DNA from: Desulfatitalea tepidiphila | GTDB taxonomy: Bacteria; Desulfobacterota; Desulfobacteria; Desulfobacterales; Desulfosarcinaceae | Assembly (NCBI RefSeq): GCF_001293685.1 | Contig: NZ_BCAG01000005.1 | Location: forward strand, 310,001-374,000 | Direction: 5' to 3' | Length of the DNA: 64,000 bases | In this document: positions 20,074 through 59,859 of the stretch, one piece after another | Layout of the letters: the number at the start of each line of letters is the position of its first letter | How positions within the stretch are numbered: the stretch's first letter is position 1 | Position numbers and translations under genes: made by a program | Notes under the pieces: model-generated | Database searches by the model: none | Told to the model about the DNA's origin: nothing | What the model saw: the letters and a program-made list of their open reading frames with translations, nothing else

Positions 20074-20214
20074 CGGGTGGTTTGAACCGGTTGCAGGGTT
20101 ATCTTTTGAACGGTGTTCAGTGGATAGAATTTACCAGTTCGGCAGGAGGGCGTCAACGCATAAAAACGAACGTTCGTTCTATTGCAGCGCCGCCGTCACG
20201 CATCGGCGCCCCGT

Positions 20215-21651: not shown

Positions 21652-21868
21652 GGCCCGGGTGGGGCAGGTTGCCAGGGCCACTTGAGCCATGCGGTTTAGT
21701 GTCGCTTTAATGCAAACGGCGGACAAGCGGCCCAGACTGTTTGAGCGCAGCGAGTTTCTGGGCCGCCCGCCGTGCATTTTAGCGACACTTGACCGCTTGG
21801 CGTGTGGCATCGGCCACCTGTCCCACCCGGGCCGGGTTTAATGCAAAGGCATAACATTCAGTCAGAAT
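21652..21868 (+). repeat. Long copy A of a structured intergenic repeat family
   Basis: Lies in the 620-nt gap between divergent sugE and the SPOR gene. Outer stem GGCCCGGGTGGGGCAGGT (21652-21669) pairs with 21816-21833 with one G-U. Inner stems: AGTGTCGCT (21698-21706) with AGCGACACT (21781-21789); AATGCA with TGCATT; ACGGCGG with CCGCCGT; GCGGCCCAGA (21727-21736) with TCTGGGCCGC (21757-21766), closing a 20-nt loop. The 3' tail GGGTTTAATG...CATTCAGTCAGAAT ends near 21868. A 70-nt core is identical to copy B at 28.7 kb. No ORF is credible here. Confidence 0.85.
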
Positions 21869-21988
21869 TGCCGCCACCCGCAATATGGGTTTTACATCGC
21901 TTTGAAAAGGGGTATATTCTGCGGTTGCGATACCGCAAGTCCAAAAATAGTCGTTTCTTTTATTTGCCAAGCGTGGAGGTTAGCTGCG

Positions 21989-22870
21989 TTGAAGAGAAAA
22001 ACGATACCCCAAGAGATAAGAGGCACCATCCCATGGGGATGGTTGATTGGCCTGGCCCTCTTGATCGTGGCGGCCGGGGTCACGTTGCTGCTGCTGCCCA
22101 AGCCGACGCCCCACACGGCGCCCCCACCCATCGTGACGGCCAAGATACCGCAAGTGCCGGAGACCCGGCCGCAGCCCGCGACCGATGAGGAGGCAGGAGA
22201 TTCGGCCCAGGGCACAGCGGCCGGCGACATAACCAAGGAGAGCACCGCACCCGAGGCCGTTCAGGACGACGCCTTCCCGGACGCCGACGGTTCGGCAGCA
22301 TCGGCCAGAGAGAGCGATGCCGGCGCCGATTCGGCCGAGTCGAATGTAAAAGACGAGGCAAAGCCGCCACTGGCCGCCGTCGCCCCATCGACACCCTCGA
22401 CCCCTTCAAAACCTGAAACATCGCCGGCTACACCGGCCTCATCCGAGAGCGCCGCACAGACCGAAGGCGCAACGGCGGCCGAAGAGCCCACCCCGTCCCG
22501 GGAGCGCCCGCCGGCATCGGCCGACGATTCCACCTCGGCCGGCGAGGAGAACGAAGCTGAACCAGCAGCGGCCGCCCCTGCCGAAACAGACGAAAAGGCG
22601 CCGGTTCCGACCCAAGTATCCACTTTCCAAGGATATACCATCCAAGTGGGGGCTTATCGGAACAAGGAGAATGCCGACGCCAAAATGGCCGACCTGCAAC
22701 AGCGGGGCTATCCGGCCTATCTGTTTGAAGTGACCGATGCACGCCGGCGTTCGTTTTATATGGTGCGGTTCGGGCAGTTCGACGGCCACCAGGAGGCCTC
22801 CGAAACGCTGGCCGATTTCAAGGAAAAGGAAAATATGCAGGCCGTCATCGTCCGCGCCGGCTCGATGTAG
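21989..22870 (+). CDS. SPOR-domain membrane protein
   Basis: 293 residues: short basic N-terminus, one membrane helix (about 16-38, WGWLIGLALLIVAAGVTLLLL), a 170-residue Ala/Pro/Glu/Ser-rich linker, and a C-terminal SPOR domain (about 215-290, GYTIQVGAYRNKENADAKMA ... RSFYMVRFGQF). This is the layout of FtsN/DedD-like bitopic division proteins that bind denuded septal glycan. A TTG start at 21989 is chosen because GGAGG lies 9 nt upstream; earlier in-frame codons (from 21902) would put an odd Cys-rich stretch before the anchor. Confidence 0.82.
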   Translation: MKRKTIPQEIRGTIPWGWLIGLALLIVAAGVTLLLLPKPTPHTAPPPIVTAKIPQVPETRPQPATDEEAGDSAQGTAAGDITKESTAPEAVQDDAFPDADGSAASARESDAGADSAESNVKDEAKPPLAAVAPSTPSTPSKPETSPATPASSESAAQTEGATAAEEPTPSRERPPASADDSTSAGEENEAEPAAAAPAETDEKAPVPTQVSTFQGYTIQVGAYRNKENADAKMADLQQRGYPAYLFEVTDARRRSFYMVRFGQFDGHQEASETLADFKEKENMQAVIVRAGSM

Positions 22871-22911
22871 CCTCGAGGGATCCTATTGGCCGGGCAGGGT
22901 TTGGCGCGGCC

Positions 22912-23874
22912 TCAGAGCACGATGCGCCAGCAGCGGTGAATGTGCTTGCGTTTGTGAAGGTAGTCTTCGGGTATGGTGCGGCCGGTGATCTCCTCGACCT
23001 CGGCCGCATTCAACAACGCCAGTTGATCGGTAAAACTCTGGTGGTTGGTAGAAAAAAGAATCGTGCCACCCGGCCGCACGAGGGCCGCGACATCGGTCAG
23101 CAACCGCAGGTGATCCGCGACGATGTCGAAGGATTCGCCTTCCTTCTCGATCGTGTAAAAAGAGGGGGGATCGACCACCGCCAGGTTAAAGCGCTGGGAT
23201 TTGCCCCTTGCCGCCGATAGAAACTCGAAGGCGTGGGCCTGGATCAGCCGGTTCTCCTTTTCCGGCACCTCGTTGAGCGCAAAATTCCGGCGGGCCCATT
23301 GAATGGCGCTCTTGGATCGATCCACGGACACGGTCGAACGGGCGCCGCCACGGGCCGCATAGCAGGAGAAGGTGCCGGTGTAACAAAACAGGTTCAGAAA
23401 TTCCTTGCCGGCGGCCATCTCGCGAACCATCTGACGCGTGTTGCGATGGTCGCCGAACAGCCCGGTATCCACGTAATCCCAGGGATTGACGATAAATTTG
23501 AAGTCTCGTTCCGAAACGGTGATCGTGCGGTCGGTGTGGTCTATACGCTCGTATCGCCGTCCTTCGGCTTTGCCGTAGTAGCGCGCCTTCAGGTGGATGT
23601 TTTCGGGCGGCACGCCCAGGGCCTCGCCGACGGCCGCCCCCATCAGCGGCAACCATTCCGGTGTGGACTGCTTGCGGGTGTACTCGCCGATCACCAGATG
23701 CCCGGCATACCAGTCCACCACCGCCCGGATCTCGGGAATGTCCCAGTCGTAAAGCCTGAAAACCTCGATGTGCTCCCGTTCGAAACGCTTGCGCAGGTGG
23801 CGATAGCGTTTTTTGACCTTGTTGGCCAGCATTTCGGCCTGCTGTCCATAGTGTTCCTGCTGCGCTTCTGCCAT
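22912..23874 (-). CDS. RlmK-like class I rRNA methyltransferase
   Basis: 320 residues resembling the C-terminal half of the fused RlmKL enzyme (23S rRNA m7G2069 methyltransferase) without the RlmL/THUMP half. Visible: NRxKKRYRHLRKRF-like N-terminus, VNPWDYVDTGLFGDHRNTR, SAM-binding motif NLFCYTGTFSCYAARGGA, acidic VDRSKSAIQWARRNFALN, and DPPSF (the NPPxF/DPPxF catalytic motif). Ends in HRCWRIVL. Standalone RlmK proteins are common outside enterobacteria. Exact target position is inferred from the family. Confidence 0.85.
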   Translation of the reverse strand: MAEAQQEHYGQQAEMLANKVKKRYRHLRKRFEREHIEVFRLYDWDIPEIRAVVDWYAGHLVIGEYTRKQSTPEWLPLMGAAVGEALGVPPENIHLKARYYGKAEGRRYERIDHTDRTITVSERDFKFIVNPWDYVDTGLFGDHRNTRQMVREMAAGKEFLNLFCYTGTFSCYAARGGARSTVSVDRSKSAIQWARRNFALNEVPEKENRLIQAHAFEFLSAARGKSQRFNLAVVDPPSFYTIEKEGESFDIVADHLRLLTDVAALVRPGGTILFSTNHQSFTDQLALLNAAEVEEITGRTIPEDYLHKRKHIHRCWRIVL

Positions 23875-23898
23875 GGGTCCGCCGTGGTTCGGTGTGGA

Positions 23899-24840
23899 TT
23901 AAATCGACTCGACGTACTGTATCATCTTTTTGCGCTCGGTTGAATCGGGTATTCGGCCGAAATTGGCGCCCATGTTGTCCTTCATGTGACGGGTTTTGGA
24001 TGTGGCCGGTATGATGCAGGTGACCGCCGGATGGGCCAGGATGAATTTCAGGAAAAACTGGCCCCAGCTGCGGGCATCGAATTCACCGGCCCATTCGGGC
24101 ACCGCCTGTCCCTTGACCCTGACGAAGAGCCCGCCGCGCTGATACGGACGGTTGATCAGGGTGGCGATCCCCCGGTCGGCCGCCAGCGGCAACAGCCGTT
24201 CCTCGGGGACGCGGTCTTCGATGTTGTAGGAAAACTGAACGAAATCGATCCGTTCGGTTCGCATGATCTCTTCCAGCTCCCGGTGATCGCGGCCGTGCGA
24301 GGTGGTAACGCCGATGTAACGGATTTTCCCCTCGGAGCGCCATTGACGCAAGGTCTCCAGGTGGGTCCGCCAATCGCGCAGATTGTGAATCTGCATCAGG
24401 TCCATCACTTCGACGCCCATCAACCGCATGGATTGCCGCATCTGGTCTTCGCCGGCCTGGCGGCCGTCGGTCCACACCTTGGTGGCGGCAAAAAGGCCAT
24501 CCGCGTTCAAGTGACTCAACAAGCGGCCCACCACCCTCTCCGCCGAACCATACATTGGCGATGAATCGATGACCGTGCCGCCCTGTTGGAAAAAGATCGA
24601 GAGTACGTCGGCCAGCCGCTCTATCTCGTCCGGATGGCTGCCCGCATTGAAGGTGCGCGAGGTGCCCATGCCGATGACCGGAATCCGTTCGCCACTGGAC
24701 GGTATGGCGCGTTCAAGGGGTTCGGGAACCATCGCCAGGATATCCCTCGGGGTAAACGCCACGCCGAGGGTCATCAATCCCAATGAGCCCATAAAGGCGC
24801 GGCGACTCAGTCTGATCGGCTTTGTAATCGTTGTCGTCAT
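23899..24840 (-). CDS. Tat-exported aldo/keto reductase
   Basis: 313 residues with a twin-arginine signal (SRRAFMGSLG, about 12-21, followed by a hydrophobic stretch). The AKR barrel keeps the catalytic tetrad-type residues: Asp and Tyr in IDSSPMYGSAERVVG, Lys in LFAATKVWTDG, His in MDLMQIHNLRDW. GGGAGG precedes the ATG at 24840; the frame is open to 24972 without an SD. It follows the ATP/ADP-carrier-like permease by 13 nt. A periplasmic reductase would probably carry its cofactor through Tat; substrate unknown. Confidence 0.88.
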   Translation of the reverse strand: MTTTITKPIRLSRRAFMGSLGLMTLGVAFTPRDILAMVPEPLERAIPSSGERIPVIGMGTSRTFNAGSHPDEIERLADVLSIFFQQGGTVIDSSPMYGSAERVVGRLLSHLNADGLFAATKVWTDGRQAGEDQMRQSMRLMGVEVMDLMQIHNLRDWRTHLETLRQWRSEGKIRYIGVTTSHGRDHRELEEIMRTERIDFVQFSYNIEDRVPEERLLPLAADRGIATLINRPYQRGGLFVRVKGQAVPEWAGEFDARSWGQFFLKFILAHPAVTCIIPATSKTRHMKDNMGANFGRIPDSTERKKMIQYVESI

Positions 24841-24853
24841 AACATCCTCCCTT

Positions 24854-26197
24854 CTAAATCGGGTTTCGCGCCCGACCACCAAGTTCGTCCGCCGCAAGTT
24901 CGGCCTGTCGACGGCCCAGGCGATAGGAGACCCAGGCCCAAAGGCAGGCCATGGGAACGGCGAGAAAGGCAATGGCCGACAGCGTCAATCCGATGCTTTG
25001 CATGGCGGCATAGAGCCAGGCACTCAAGGCGTCTCCGCCGCGATACACCACGGTGTCGATGAAATTCTTGGCCTTGTACTTCTCTTCCTTGGTCAGTACG
25101 ACATAAAGCATTTCACGGCCCGGCCGCGTGATGGCGTAGTTGCCGGCCCGGCGCAGCACCTGGACGAGCACCAGCACGCCGAGCAGCGGCGCAAACCCCA
25201 TGACCAGGAAACCGGCACCGAGCAGTACCGGGATCAGGGCCAGGGCCCGCCCGAGTCCCAGGCGATCGATGATGCGGCCGGTCAAAAAGAGTTGAAGGGT
25301 CAGGGTCAGCGCATTGACCGCGAAATCGATGCCGGCGAACAGAGCGGTGCGGACGGCCGGATCATCGAACCGATCCCGGATGATGTGCGCCTGTTGAAAA
25401 TAGAGAAAGGTCGCCAGCGAAGAGAAGAGAAAGATCATCAAGCAGATGCCGGACAGATAGGTGGAAGTGAAGACCAGCCGTATGCCGGCCAGCACCCCGC
25501 CGCCGATGGCCGCATCTTTGGCTGAATCGTTTCCAGAATCAATGAATCGGTCCGCTTCCCCGGGGTCATGGGCATTGCCGCGGCCGGCCCCGAAGGAACC
25601 ATCGCCCTTCTTGTCCTTCGCATGGCGCCAGGCCACCAGGCGCTGGACGCACAGGGCCGCCACCGTCAAAAAGAGGGCCGAGACCAGAAGCAGGTTCGTC
25701 GGGCCAGTGCGGATCACCAGCATCGCTGTAAGGGCCGGGCCGGTCAGCGCACCGGCCGTGCCGCCGGCGGCGATGACGCCGAAAAGGCGTTTTGCCTGCT
25801 CGGTATTGAAGATATCGGTCATGAAACTCCAGAACACCGAGACGATGAACAGGTTGAAGACGCTGGTCCATATGAAGAAGATGCGGGCCACATGGACATC
25901 GGTCAGCGCCGACTTGAAGAGAACGAAGAAAACGAGAAGATTGGAAATAAAAAAACCGTAGACAAAGATCAGGAACCGGTGGGGTGCGTATCGGCGGGTG
26001 ATCCAGCCGAACAGGGGGACCGCCGCAAGCATGGCGGCAAACGTCCCGCTGAAGAGCCACTGCAGTTTATCCACCCCGCCGGCGATGCCCATCTCGTCTC
26101 TCATGGGTCGGATGATGTAATAGCCGCATAACAGAGAAAAAAAGTAAAGGAATGACCAGATCAGCGCCGCCGCCTCGCCCTGTTTCAGGGCCATCAT
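24854..26197 (-). CDS. ATP/ADP-carrier-like MFS transporter (NTP/NDP antiporter family)
   Basis: 447 residues with 11-12 membrane helices. The start region LKRMMALKQGEAAALIWSFL followed by YFFSLLCGYYIIRPMRDEMG is characteristic of free-living relatives of the Tlc nucleotide carriers. It also has SVFWSFMTDIFNTEQAKRLF and REMLYVVLTKEEKYKAKNFI. Whether it moves nucleotides is unknown. The frame is open to 26410, but that would run through the intrinsic terminator at 26367-26397, so a start at ATG 26197 (or the CTG four codons earlier, 10 nt after a GGAGG) is preferred. The Tat aldo/keto reductase follows in the same operon. Confidence 0.82.
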   Translation of the reverse strand: MMALKQGEAAALIWSFLYFFSLLCGYYIIRPMRDEMGIAGGVDKLQWLFSGTFAAMLAAVPLFGWITRRYAPHRFLIFVYGFFISNLLVFFVLFKSALTDVHVARIFFIWTSVFNLFIVSVFWSFMTDIFNTEQAKRLFGVIAAGGTAGALTGPALTAMLVIRTGPTNLLLVSALFLTVAALCVQRLVAWRHAKDKKGDGSFGAGRGNAHDPGEADRFIDSGNDSAKDAAIGGGVLAGIRLVFTSTYLSGICLMIFLFSSLATFLYFQQAHIIRDRFDDPAVRTALFAGIDFAVNALTLTLQLFLTGRIIDRLGLGRALALIPVLLGAGFLVMGFAPLLGVLVLVQVLRRAGNYAITRPGREMLYVVLTKEEKYKAKNFIDTVVYRGGDALSAWLYAAMQSIGLTLSAIAFLAVPMACLWAWVSYRLGRRQAELAADELGGRARNPI

Positions 26198-26366
26198 CCG
26201 TTTCAGCCACGGGATGCCTCCGGACGTGCGCCACCCACTCGATTCAGCGGCAAGGATCGATTTTGGTGTCGGATTGTGGCTCAGACCGCTGGTTATCCAG
26301 TCGGCAATCGCCCTGTTTTCTGTCTGTTTTGAAGCTGCGGCTTTTCTCCCGGTGGGCGTAGGGAAG

Positions 26367-26397
26367 AAAAAAGTGGCGGAGAGCGAATCTCCGCCAC
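26367..26397 (-). terminator. Rho-independent terminator of the small-peptide operon
   Basis: Minus-strand hairpin with a perfect 10-bp stem GTGGCGGAGA / TCTCCGCCAC and a TTCGC loop, followed directly by TTTTTT. It lies 41 nt after the stop of the 64-residue small protein and separates it from the transporter gene. Confidence 0.9.
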
Positions 26398-26437
26398 GAT
26401 GGATGATCACTTTAGAATGTCATGGACGACCGACGCA

Positions 26438-26632
26438 TCAGATACGGCCGCCGAGGCCCCCCGGTGGGTCATTTCGTCTGAATGTCCAGGAAGGACTCTT
26501 TTCGGCCGGTGAACTGTAGGCCATGTTCGATTTATTGATGGTGCGCTGCCGTTCCTGCTCGCCTTCGAAAACACGGTCCCGGCATTCACCCCTGCACTTT
26601 CCACTGGTATCTCTCGATGGCATCTTTTTCAT
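26438..26632 (-). CDS. Small basic protein with CxxxC motif, unknown
   Basis: 64 residues beginning MKKMPSRDTSGKCRGECRDR, strongly basic and polar, ending in PPGGLGGRI. It has a single CxxxC (residues 13 and 17). The start is supported by AAAAGGAG with 8-nt spacing. It lies 99 nt downstream of the six-Cys peptide gene, is on the same strand, and is followed by a strong terminator, so the two form a closed operon. A 65-residue frame (26407-26604) overlaps it but lacks an SD. No family recognised. Confidence 0.65.
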   Translation of the reverse strand: MKKMPSRDTSGKCRGECRDRVFEGEQERQRTINKSNMAYSSPAEKSPSWTFRRNDPPGGLGGRI

Positions 26633-26731
26633 GTTGGATCTCCTTTTATACCTGTCGCCGCCGCCTCGATTCGATGGGCGCCTGTTCGGCGCGGGCGATA
26701 CCCGCCGCCGCAGGACCGATCAGATCGGCGG

Positions 26732-26875
26732 TCAGCTGCATTCGTTGAAACAATTGCGCTCGCGGGTTTTGCATATGGCTGCGCCGCCTTCCTCCTCGAC
26801 GCAGCGCACCCACTCCAATGCGCACACCTCTTCACAGCGCATATCTTCGGGGATGTCATAGGTTGATGAACTCAT
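26732..26875 (-). CDS. 47-residue six-cysteine peptide, predicted helical hairpin
   Basis: Acidic 47-residue peptide, starting MSSSTYDIPEDMRCEEVC, with Cys at 14, 18, 25, 35, 42 and 46, i.e. C-x3-C-x6-C-x9-C-x6-C-x3-C, a mirror-symmetric spacing. The two Cys-rich stretches look like amphipathic helices separated by EEEGGA, so nested pairs (14-46, 18-42, 25-35) would lock an antiparallel helical hairpin, as in alpha-hairpinins or CHCH proteins. AGGAGG lies 5 nt before the ATG. No signal peptide. Too short for the usual ORF cutoffs. Function unknown: disulfide peptide, metal-binding peptide or natural-product precursor are possible. Confidence 0.8.
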   Translation of the reverse strand: MSSSTYDIPEDMRCEEVCALEWVRCVEEEGGAAICKTRERNCFNECS

Positions 26876-27090
26876 GGTGCCTCCTCTCTGAATCTGATCG
26901 TCGGACCATCATGCGCCTGTCACGCCTTGCAACGCACGGCAGCGACGCGACGCCGCATCGTTTCGCCTGAAAAAGAATCACGCGGGACCGGCCTGGGGGA
27001 CCTGGATGGAAAAAGCGGAAGTCAGAACGGGGAACGTGGTGCCGGTGTTCAGGGCGGCCCCTTTTCAGGCGCCGTGTCGTCTTTAGAAAA

Positions 27091-27118
27091 ACTCTAGTGG
27101 TTCGGCGGTATTTGTCAA
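27091..27118 (-). promoter_or_regulatory. Predicted sigma-70 promoter of the small-peptide operon
   Basis: Minus strand: TTGACA at 27118-27113, 16-nt spacer, TAGAGT at 27096-27091. Initiation near 27084 would give an untranslated leader of about 209 nt. Confidence 0.55.
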
Positions 27119-27138
27119 GCCGGGCAACCCCACTCCCC

Positions 27139-27168
27139 TTGCCAGCCCGGACGCAGATGCGCTATAGG
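27139..27168 (+). promoter_or_regulatory. Possible sigma-70 promoter of the metallo-hydrolase gene
   Basis: TTGCCA at 27139-27144, 18-nt spacer, TATAGG at 27163-27168, about 50 nt upstream of the AAGGAGG-TTG start at 27222. Confidence 0.35.
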
Positions 27169-27221
27169 CATTGAAAAACCACCGGGAAAATCCAACTCCC
27201 GGCGCGGACAAGGAGGCACCC

Positions 27222-27887
27222 TTGCAACTGGACAAGCAACTGCACGCATTCATATGGCGCTCCATGTCGGTCAACAACTGCAACACCTATCTGATCGACC
27301 GATCCAGGCGCATCCTCATCGATCCGGGCCACAGCGCCTATTTCGACCATGTGGAGAGCGGACTGCGGGAACTGGGCCTGACCGTTGCCGATATCGACGT
27401 GGTCCTGTGCACCCATGCCCATCCGGATCACATCGAGGCCGTGCAGCTGTTCAAAGAGGCCGGCGCCCTGTTCGGGCTGCACGCGGCGGACTGGGAACTG
27501 GTCCGCCAGATGGCACCGCATCTCCAGGCAGCCGGCGGCTTCTCGCTCGACGCCCTGACGCCCGACCTGCTGCTCCAGGAGGGCGAGTTGAACATCGGCG
27601 ATACCCAGTTGATGGTCTATCACACCCCCGGTCATTCGCCCGGCTCGGTCTGTTTTTATTGGCCTCTCGGGAAAGTCCTGGTGACCGGGGATCTGGTGTT
27701 CAAGGCAGGGGTCGGACGGACGGATCTGCCGGGCGGCGACGGCCGGCAGTTGAAACACAGCATCCAGAGGATGGCGGGTCTTGAGGTGGACCATTTCCTG
27801 CCCGGACACGGCGACACGATCTCCGGCGCGCAGGAGGTCCAACGCAATTTTCAGCGCCTTGACAGCGCCTACCTGAGCTATCTATAG
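27222..27887 (+). CDS. MBL-fold metallo-hydrolase (glyoxalase II-like)
   Basis: 221 residues. The metal site is complete: THAHPDH (64-70), His in HTPGHSPGS, Asp in VTGDLVF and His in FLPGHGD. The overall pattern resembles the glyoxalase II/persulfide dioxygenase-like group; substrate not assignable. A TTG start at 27222 is preceded by AAGGAGG at 5-nt spacing; the frame is open further upstream without an RBS. Its 3' end overlaps by 6 nt the end of the convergent gene at 27882. Confidence 0.9.
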   Translation: MQLDKQLHAFIWRSMSVNNCNTYLIDRSRRILIDPGHSAYFDHVESGLRELGLTVADIDVVLCTHAHPDHIEAVQLFKEAGALFGLHAADWELVRQMAPHLQAAGGFSLDALTPDLLLQEGELNIGDTQLMVYHTPGHSPGSVCFYWPLGKVLVTGDLVFKAGVGRTDLPGGDGRQLKHSIQRMAGLEVDHFLPGHGDTISGAQEVQRNFQRLDSAYLSYL

Positions 27888-28406
27888 CCGCTGTTTCTCC
27901 TGTTCCAGCTTCATGGTGAACAATTCCTGCATGGTGGCGGCTTCGTCCCGCCACTTGGGGTCGCTCTCCAGGTTGGGGGTGACCGCAGATCCCCAAACCT
28001 CCCGCTGCGTCTTCAAAAATCCAGCGAGATCCCGGCGGCGGTCATCCGCCCGCTGGGTCATTTCGGCCTGATAATCCCTGGCCAGGACCCTCAATGGCTC
28101 GATATTGCAGCCGAATACCCGTTCGAGCACGTCGAGCAGCGGCGCATGGAGCGTTTCCAGGTGCAGACGATCGAGAACCACGTGGCGAAGCACACCCGCA
28201 TCGCCGAGATCATGTTTGCGGGCGACATCGGCCAGCCCCTCCTGCAACGCTTCGAGCGTCAACTCCTGATCCAGATGCTTCTGCAACAGGCCGTTGAAGA
28301 TCTTCTGAGCCTCCTCGAGCCTTGCAGCGCGCTTCTCTTCGGCGCTGAAGGTCAGGTTACGGGTCTTTTCCATTACCAGATCCAACGTGCTTTTGATCTC
28401 GGCCAC
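27882..28406 (-). CDS. Conserved-looking helical protein, unknown
   Basis: 174 residues, almost wholly helical and charged (EEKRAARLEEAQKIFNGLLQ, DDRRRDLAGFLKTQREVWG), with one Cys and no membrane segment or signal. It starts MAEIKSTLDLVMEKTRNLTF. I do not recognise a family; the sequence composition and GC-phase look coding, and the stop lies against the convergent metallo-hydrolase gene. Confidence 0.65.
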   Translation of the reverse strand: MAEIKSTLDLVMEKTRNLTFSAEEKRAARLEEAQKIFNGLLQKHLDQELTLEALQEGLADVARKHDLGDAGVLRHVVLDRLHLETLHAPLLDVLERVFGCNIEPLRVLARDYQAEMTQRADDRRRDLAGFLKTQREVWGSAVTPNLESDPKWRDEAATMQELFTMKLEQEKQRL

Positions 28407-28585
28407 AGCGTCACCCTCGATGCCATTTTTGTCGTTTAAAAATTTTTTTTACAGTATTGTATTTAATTCACCAGCGACTGTCGGTCGCAAATCGAGCTTT
28501 TGAACTGTTATCACAAACGCTTAAAGAACACCACCCGATCCGGCACGCGTTTTGAACATCTGTCAGAATCCCTGAATCGTCTGGA

Positions 28586-28886
28586 GGAATTCTAACTGAA
28601 TGAGATTGACCTTGAAAGGCGCGCCTTACAAAATTTTTTTAATAAAAAAATCGCATGGCAACGGAGATGGCAGGCGTGTGTGGGGCAGGTGGCCAGGGCC
28701 ACGTGAGCCTGCGGTCTTAGAGCCAGTTAAATGCAAACGGCGGACAAGCGGCCCAGACTGTTTGAGCGCAGCGAGTTTCTGGGCCGCCCGCCGTGCATTT
28801 TACTGGCTCTTGACCGCTTGGCGTGTGGCATCGGCCAGCTGTTCCACACACGCTGGGTTCAAAGAACAGCATTCAGATAGAATCCC
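28586..28886 (+). repeat. Long copy B of the structured repeat family, with terminal inverted repeats
   Basis: About 301 bp in the divergent gap before surE. Ends are inverted: GGAATTCTAACTGAATG (28586-28602) against CATTCAGATAGAATCCC (28870-28886). Within it, outer stem GCGTGTGTGGGGCAG (28674-28688) pairs with 28839-28853 with two G-U pairs; AGAGCCAGT (28719-28727) pairs with ACTGGCTCT (28802-28810); the central palindrome (28729-28800) is identical to copy A. A 19-bp direct repeat AGAATCCCTGAATCGTCTG occurs at 28565-28583 and 28879-28897. Confidence 0.85.
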
Positions 28887-29002
28887 TGAATCGTCTGCAC
28901 CCTGGTTGCATTCATGGGACGTCATGTTTTATAAAGAATTTTAGTAGATGCGGCGTTCCATCGCCGTTTCCTTTTTTTGATCAACCCGGGAACGGAGTGA
29001 CA

Positions 29003-36197: not shown

Positions 36198-36286
36198 CAG
36201 GGACTCTAACTGAATGCGATTCATTAAACTCGGCGCGGGAGGGGCAGGCGGCCGATGCCACACACCCCGCCCACGCCTGCCGAGAT
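36198..36286 (-). repeat. Short copy D of the structured repeat family
   Basis: Reverse-orientation copy between asnB and glnA. It carries the shared end GGGACTCTAACTGAATGCG followed by ATTCATTAAAC and CGGCGCGGG, almost identical to copy C, and the distal arm CCACACACCCC...CACGCCTGCC. The central palindrome of the long copies is absent. Arms GGCGTGGGCGGGG and CCCCTCCCGCGCC still pair with two mismatches. Confidence 0.75.
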
Positions 36287-59670: not shown

Positions 59671-59770
59671 AAAAAAAATCGCATGCCAAAGCAGATGGCA
59701 GGCGTATGTGGCCCTGGCCACCTGTTCCACCCGCGCCGGGTTTAATGAATCGCATTCTGTTAGAATCCCT
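59671..59770 (+). repeat. Short copy C of the structured repeat family
   Basis: Between purF and the cyclic-nucleotide-binding gene. The head AAAAAATCGCATGCCAAAGC and GATGGCAGGCGTATGTGG match the head of copy B, then the sequence jumps directly to GGCCACCTGTTCCACC-CGCGCCGGGTTTAATG and the shared end CATTCTGTTAGAATCCCT. The entire central palindrome is missing, as if excised. Confidence 0.8.
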
Positions 59771-59859
59771 GGCCAATTGACTTTGGGCTTGCCTTTTGGT
59801 GCAGCCGGGGTCTACAATGCATTTGGCGATTTTGTCACTACCGCCGCAGGAGCATATCG

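Follow-up and report, generated by a model that had tools for sequence, protein, structure and literature searches.

The window analysed here, a 64-kb stretch of the Desulfatitalea tepidiphila genome (contig NZ_BCAG01000005.1), contains two long copies, A and B, of an intergenic repeat that is almost certainly a short transposon and whose body folds into a single hairpin with a 20-nt apical loop. Copy B is a complete element, copy A lacks the left arm, and two internally deleted copies lie further to the right. Both long copies stand between divergent genes according to our own codon-usage script, in agreement with the first-pass annotation of this sequence, and we take the gene to the right of copy B to resemble a SurE nucleotidase. 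The features are as follows.

28584..28888, + strand: copy B, complete 305-bp element with terminal inverted repeats (TIRs) and an exact 9-bp duplication
28575..28583, strand not assigned: left target duplication of copy B, aatcgtctg
28889..28897, strand not assigned: right target duplication of copy B, aatcgtctg
28584..28602, + strand: left TIR of copy B, GAGGAATTCTAACTGAATG
28870..28888, - strand: right TIR of copy B, reading CATTCAGATAGAATCCCTG on the + strand
28674..28853, + strand: hairpin body of copy B, fold -131.4 kcal/mol, z -10.7
28758..28777, + strand: apical 20-nt loop of copy B, CTGTTTGAGCGCAGCGAGTT, which recurs in other genomes
21652..21873, + strand: copy A, left-truncated, hairpin and right end (last 5 bases inferred from other copies)
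21652..21833, + strand: hairpin body of copy A, fold -142.5 kcal/mol, z -12.5
21737..21756, + strand: apical loop of copy A, CTGTTTGAGCGCAGCGAGTT
36198..36273, - strand: internally deleted copy without the apex; the ortholog in the relative retains more of the hairpin
59672..59771, + strand: internally deleted copy without the apex

Both copies were found where the first-pass annotation had placed them, and they share an identical core of about 70 nt in which the loop lies (21737 in A, 28758 in B). The long hairpin folds that it had proposed were borne out, as no shuffled sequence matched the native fold energy of either copy. Likewise, the outer and inner stems differ between A and B and stay paired in both, as had been claimed: in copy A the outer stem GGCCCGGGTGGGGCAGG (21652) pairs with CCTGTCCCACCCGGGCC (21817), and in copy B GCGTGTGTGGGGCAG (28674) pairs with CTGTTCCACACACGC (28839), two G.T pairs included.

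The nature of the repeat was examined in the genome containing the window (G000, 5.6 Mb) and in its closest relative (G195). Allowing up to 2 mismatches, the loop occurs at 107 sites in G000 (55 + 52), and 100 distinct sites with flanks, chosen by the loop pattern, were aligned as the copy set. The alignment revealed sharp borders and the TIR CAGNRRTTCTAACTGAATG at both element ends. Among the 70 two-ended copies, 37 have flanking 9-mers that agree at 8 or more of 9 positions (19 exactly), as against a mean of 0.04 and a maximum of 1 for shuffled partners. These 37 copies are 303-308 bp long and contain no transposase gene. An empty site further strengthens this observation, with locus L121 occupied in G000, its two duplications agreeing at 7 of 9 positions, and the target uninterrupted in the relative UBA4791 (L069). 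Two other candidate empty sites were dropped, one (L077 versus L061) with a length difference of 476 bp that exceeds the element, and that of copy B in G195 with a run of N in the assembly. None of the 100 copies lies within a called open reading frame longer than 450 bp. Sharp borders, TIRs, 9-bp duplications, an empty site, and intergenic placement together make it nearly certain that the repeat is a transposon of the miniature inverted-repeat transposable element (MITE) type. The first-pass annotation had recognized a structured repeat with covarying arms and had missed the transposon with its TIRs and target duplications; it drew the limits too narrowly for a unit of 303-308 bp, in that its range for copy B (28586-28886) takes in almost the whole element, while that for copy A (21652-21868) describes a copy without its left arm.

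Movement of the element would depend on a transposase acting in trans on the terminal repeats. None of the 19 PF01609 (DDE_Tnp_1) loci carries the TIR pair, in a search that covered the transposase families DDE_Tnp_1 and Y1. Loci L121 and L122, where TIR matches lie about 3 kb apart, were considered as candidate autonomous copies, and their open reading frames looked host-like by eye. Loci L124 and L125 have minimal forms, apparently internal deletions, that measure about 58 bp from TIR to TIR. Just beyond the left target duplication of copy B (28564-28574), and again at locus L002, a second copy of the terminal GAATC..TG letters was observed, which looks as if an earlier insertion had left its trace at the same spot.

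The constancy of the loop within the genus was assessed by a loop-blind search in which the flanking stem served as the key, giving 83 sites in G000 and 15 in G195. Among the matches listed (50 in G000 and all 15 in G195), the loop is identical at 56 of 65 sites, and at 41 of the 50 in G000 alone; the loop described earlier as invariant is thus nearly so, with the remaining sites differing, but this constancy is limited in weight by the youth of the copies. The wider distribution of the apex is more informative. Of 30 genomes of the family, 10 (G000 among them, and all within the genus) matched a 311-bp query, and beyond G000 and G195 most of the matches listed cover a short stretch around the loop. 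In a public genome collection, which may leave out the window's own records, Desulfatitalea sp. UBA4791 was the only genome with the exact 68-nt core (9 loci). Across the order, the loop with at most 1 mismatch occurs in 19 of 194 genomes, and across the phylum the exact 20-mer, with A or C at its variable place, occurs in 5 of 297, G000 being included in both counts. Paired stems of unrelated sequence bear the loop CTGTTTGAGCGMAGCGAGTT in other Desulfobacterota, as well as on plasmids and on contigs of the IMG/VR collection. At the loci examined in the order and phylum genomes the stems are mostly different and paired, and related hairpins with different outer sequence occur in genomes G126, G152, G194, and G010. 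The terminal repeats of G126 (TGGTTATCCASTTCG) and G010 (CAACTTTCGACTTTCAT) are unrelated to those of the window element, whereas those of G152 are a relative of them, and short direct repeats were seen by eye around several of these related elements.

Outside the phylum, plasmids with exact matches of at least 20 nt include those of Butyrivibrio, Variovorax, Parabacteroides, and Ilyobacter, where the expected chance occurrence of one given 20-mer is about 0.013 in 7.3 Gb on both strands. Pairing across the loop was compared with the best of 100 shuffles at 11 plasmid loci from 9 records, and it exceeded the best shuffle in Butyrivibrio (both copies), Fusobacterium, one Ilyobacter site, and one of two Variovorax copies. 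Long hairpins were also found on several IMG/VR contigs, while no paired hairpin was present at the viral-contig matches L279, L321, L322, L327, L328, L329, L332, and L334, six of which (L321, L327, L328, L329, L332, and L334) were set aside by eye as probably coding; four of these six are among the 27 stem clusters, which leaves 23. With small register shifts allowed, 18 of the 27 clusters pair at 8 or more of 9 positions, compared with a mean of 1.29 and a maximum of 6 after shuffling; of those from plasmids, Variovorax, Fusobacterium, and Aureibacter reach this threshold, while Butyrivibrio and Parabacteroides reach 7, and one cluster of the window's own genome (L126) is a register-shifted form of another. 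Covariation was scored on 48 distinct arm pairs, without the six viral loci, in which 79.6% of cells pair as against 45.8% in shuffles, the rows including near relatives so that cells are not independent events. The covariation score was 0.844, compared with 0.230 for shuffled and at most 0.308 for slid arms, and was reached by 0 of 500 shuffles. Finally, a covariance model built from plasmid and IMG/VR matches alone (15 sequences, the viral ones without assigned hosts) finds both window copies with 40.6 bits and an E-value of 1.5e-5, over the apex only.

These observations are best accommodated by a non-autonomous MITE of about 305 bp that has inserted into intergenic DNA with 9-bp target duplications and that carries a conserved hairpin-loop recognition module for a putative partner, an explanation to which, taken whole, we assign a probability of roughly 0.6. 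The body would be a hairpin of about 180 nt with an apex consisting of the 20-nt loop on a stem of 8-10 bp, and this apex would be a module common to hairpins of other bacteria that have unrelated stems and, in part, unrelated terminal repeats. The stems would change freely while their arms stay complementary whether by correction of one arm from the other, by conversion of the hairpin as a whole, or by selection, and the loop would be retained by recognition in single-stranded form. The loop tip on unrelated stems in distant bacteria suggests that something recognizes it, and retention of the apex through recognition in single-stranded form is, by itself, slightly favored in our estimate.

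A wider proposal is that the loop CTGTTTGAGCGMAGCGAGTT marks a pan-bacterial module with varying stems, recognized by a widespread putative protein or RNA and taken up repeatedly by unrelated transposons, the 305-bp MITE included. Some distant members share evenly spaced GCGTTAAG and TAGC motifs and a GCCTTGA tail: GCGTTAAG precedes the loop at distances of about 43 and 19 nt, TAGC follows it at about 10 and 31 nt, and GCCTTGA follows it at about 48 nt; other Desulfobacterota families are mostly without GCGTTAAG and GCCTTGA. We hold this proposal tentatively and at less than even odds, our estimate being slightly lowered by the plasmid hairpins, several of which taken singly fail to surpass their shuffles. 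Within this wider set, one IMG/VR copy (L330:361-400) has its loop followed by an extra palindrome, CCTGCCTGCCGGCATAGGCAGG, that is absent from its near relative L324, and the Parabacteroides and Variovorax plasmid loci L284 and L283 each show a pair of oppositely oriented loops, one of the A form and one of the C form, separated by about 0.4 kb.

Several results weigh against recognition of a conserved apex. The two Parabacteroides copies and Aureibacter do not rise above the best shuffle, no such hairpin forms at one Ilyobacter site or at the Agrobacterium site, and at the Caballeronia and Cupriavidus loci no motif was close enough to fold; support outside the Desulfobacterota varies by record. 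The invariance of the loop in distant genomes is partly a matter of construction, because the loop was the search key with which these hairpins were found and hairpins with other loops would go unseen; the choice of key does not explain why the loop predicts a paired stem, or why a single 20-mer stands on unrelated stems. Moreover, the loop of the G195 ortholog of copy A (L265) has changed to an alternative form, GTTTGA-CCCCGGCGCAGGCCGGGG-GAG (TTCGA in G195), and this form is also present at 2 of the 50 own-genome sites among the matches listed (C1:534520-534566 and C1:570983-571029); in this alternative loop a small hairpin takes the place of the loop middle.

The covariation among copies of the window's own genome was examined separately. 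Across the 100 copies, Watson-Crick pairs fill 6588 of 7269 pair cells and G.T pairs a further 445, and at several stem positions two Watson-Crick types occur (for example, G-C 58 times and C-G 29 times). Outer types (GTGG and CCGG) and inner types (GTGCCGG and GAGCCAG) combine freely, and left and right arms mostly match across the reassorted types, with some mismatched mosaics present. Such data show that inheritance or correction acts on the hairpin as a whole. If a conversion tract had its centre at the loop, both inner arms would be exchanged together, and template switching would mend one arm from the other; arm covariation in one genome is not proof that the fold is selected, because either process suffices. 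The earlier statement that compensatory change means a selected fold was therefore too strong for copies of a single genome, while its alternative, that the structure is copied as a unit, covers the data. An excess of G.T over A.C among residual mismatches (154 versus 68) was considered as a sign of RNA and was not upheld, the control with single-site changes being non-significant (P = 0.19). The argument for constraint rests on the cross-genome data, which point to the loop more than to any stem sequence. More generally, covariation among repeats of one genome does not prove a functional RNA, and we advise caution in reading it so.

The strongest competing explanation draws on these same processes. 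It holds that the element is an ordinary MITE with a passive hairpin, whose arms remain complementary only through template switching and gene conversion and whose loop is constant through youth and horizontal spread, without any recognition. Correction of quasipalindromes is an established mutation route, and the reassorted stem types with mostly matching arms and occasional mosaics, the changed loop of the copy A ortholog, and three of the 100 copies (L076, L083, and L102) in which the hairpin is inverted relative to its asymmetric flanks all fit this account. An unconstrained loop should, however, drift as stems turn over, and the same 20-mer on unrelated paired stems in distant genomes leads us to regard a purely passive hairpin as unlikely.

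If the apex is recognized, its form would be either a transcript or single-stranded DNA. Between co-directional neighbors the loop strand is biased towards the sense orientation, with a sense:antisense ratio of 35:11 in the co-directional gaps of G000 (P = 5e-4) and of 27:7 (P = 8e-4, 10 edge cases dropped) in six further genome sets from the order, five of the same genus and one of another family. Because of this bias, we consider recognition of a transcript somewhat likelier than recognition of single-stranded DNA. Against it, the strictest gene calls weaken the bias to 33:18 (P = 0.049) in G000 and 21:10 (P = 0.07) in the others, and annotated plasmid copies in other phyla comprise 2 sense and 2 antisense cases, the rest being divergent or convergent.

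Recognition as DNA would mean that the hairpin is extruded during replication or transfer and that an HUH-type or other strand-specific recombinase recognizes the loop, as TnpA-REP does with REP (repetitive extragenic palindrome) hairpins. A strand-specific hairpin with a fixed loop and copies on plasmids and IMG/VR contigs fits this reading, and for TnpA-REP, PMC8266576 reports that positions in the loop are important in two of the three systems investigated. The loop is absent from the flanks (up to about 1.5 kb) of all 34 Y1 (PF01797) transposase loci, and among the 14 other genomes with the loop, of which several are incomplete, 6 gave no Y1 match; an origin from RAYT or IS200-like elements was accordingly rejected for want of a linked Y1 gene. 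In addition, 9-bp target duplications fit DDE-type rather than IS200/IS605-type insertion, and we consider a single-stranded DNA substrate improbable.

An intrinsic terminator or mRNA 3'-end stabilizer spread by the MITE is very improbable: the hairpin is highly stable and T-rich tracts follow several members outside Desulfatitalea, but no T-run directly follows the hairpin on the loop strand in A or B, and convergent gaps hold 9 of 98 copies as against 43 in divergent gaps, the opposite of the preference for convergent, tail-repeat-tail gaps that PMC2718517 describes for Pseudomonas fluorescens repeats.

The 98 copies scored for context (2 at locus edges were dropped) comprise 46 between co-directional genes in addition to these divergent and convergent cases, while the 27 gaps of 60 bp or more in the window are 6 divergent, 18 co-directional, and 3 convergent. 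A promoter in the arms was also considered. The left arm of copy B has a sigma-70-like match, with 3 sites in 701 bp compared with 0.4 in shuffles, and this candidate was rejected despite the single matches near B, as sigma-70 sites were not enriched over shuffles in the arms of 100 copies.

No described RNA class had been recognized in the repeat at the outset, and indeed no curated Rfam family was reached by any scan. At the gathering threshold the whole window gave no Rfam match, a permissive search of the hairpin loci gave sub-threshold matches only (for example, MIR1437 with 52.1 bits versus 168), and the sole match above threshold at these loci was a neighboring tRNA in L145. The family sRNA-Xcc1, also considered, was absent among the Rfam matches. 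Phages gave weak matches only, some loop patterns had no viral matches, and the A-form query found no match in E. coli genomes. The motif was not found in searches of the open-licence literature, where the peptide LFERSEF, a reading of the loop, returned unrelated papers. Elsewhere in the window, a repeat finder identified a separate palindrome, AACGAACGTTCGTT, at 20146-20197.

Should the loop prove to be a recognition site of mobile hairpins in distant bacteria, its partner would be there to be found, and the natural stem variants already sketch that partner's binding rule. The Desulfatitalea family, with its approximately 107 natural copies, provides a ready test set.

Among known systems, the closest are the bacterial MITEs (Correia, QMITE, and, as proposed, R0/R2 of P. 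fluorescens), for which PMC10969869 and PMC2718517 describe short elements with TIRs, target duplications, many intergenic copies, and folding transcripts. The window element is similarly short, has no transposase gene, and shares the TIRs, the target duplications, and the many intergenic copies. It differs from these in a body that is nearly all one hairpin of about 180 nt, whose near-constant loop is found as well in elements with different TIRs, and in the small number of its copies between convergent genes. REP, BIME, and REPIN-RAYT sequences resemble it as dispersed intergenic palindromes with a strand-specific hairpin and a loop that can be important. REP/RAYT palindromes reportedly carry a GTAG tag at the foot, according to the title of one study (PMC3733652); the window element is much longer, has TIRs and 9-bp duplications and no Y1 link, and on reading the sequence neither GTAG nor CGTC was present at the hairpin feet of A and B. 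Template-switch correction of quasipalindromes likewise keeps arms complementary without RNA selection, and it leaves a fixed loop on unrelated stems unexplained. Overall, the transposon belongs to the known MITE kind, and the proposed shared loop module would be the new part.

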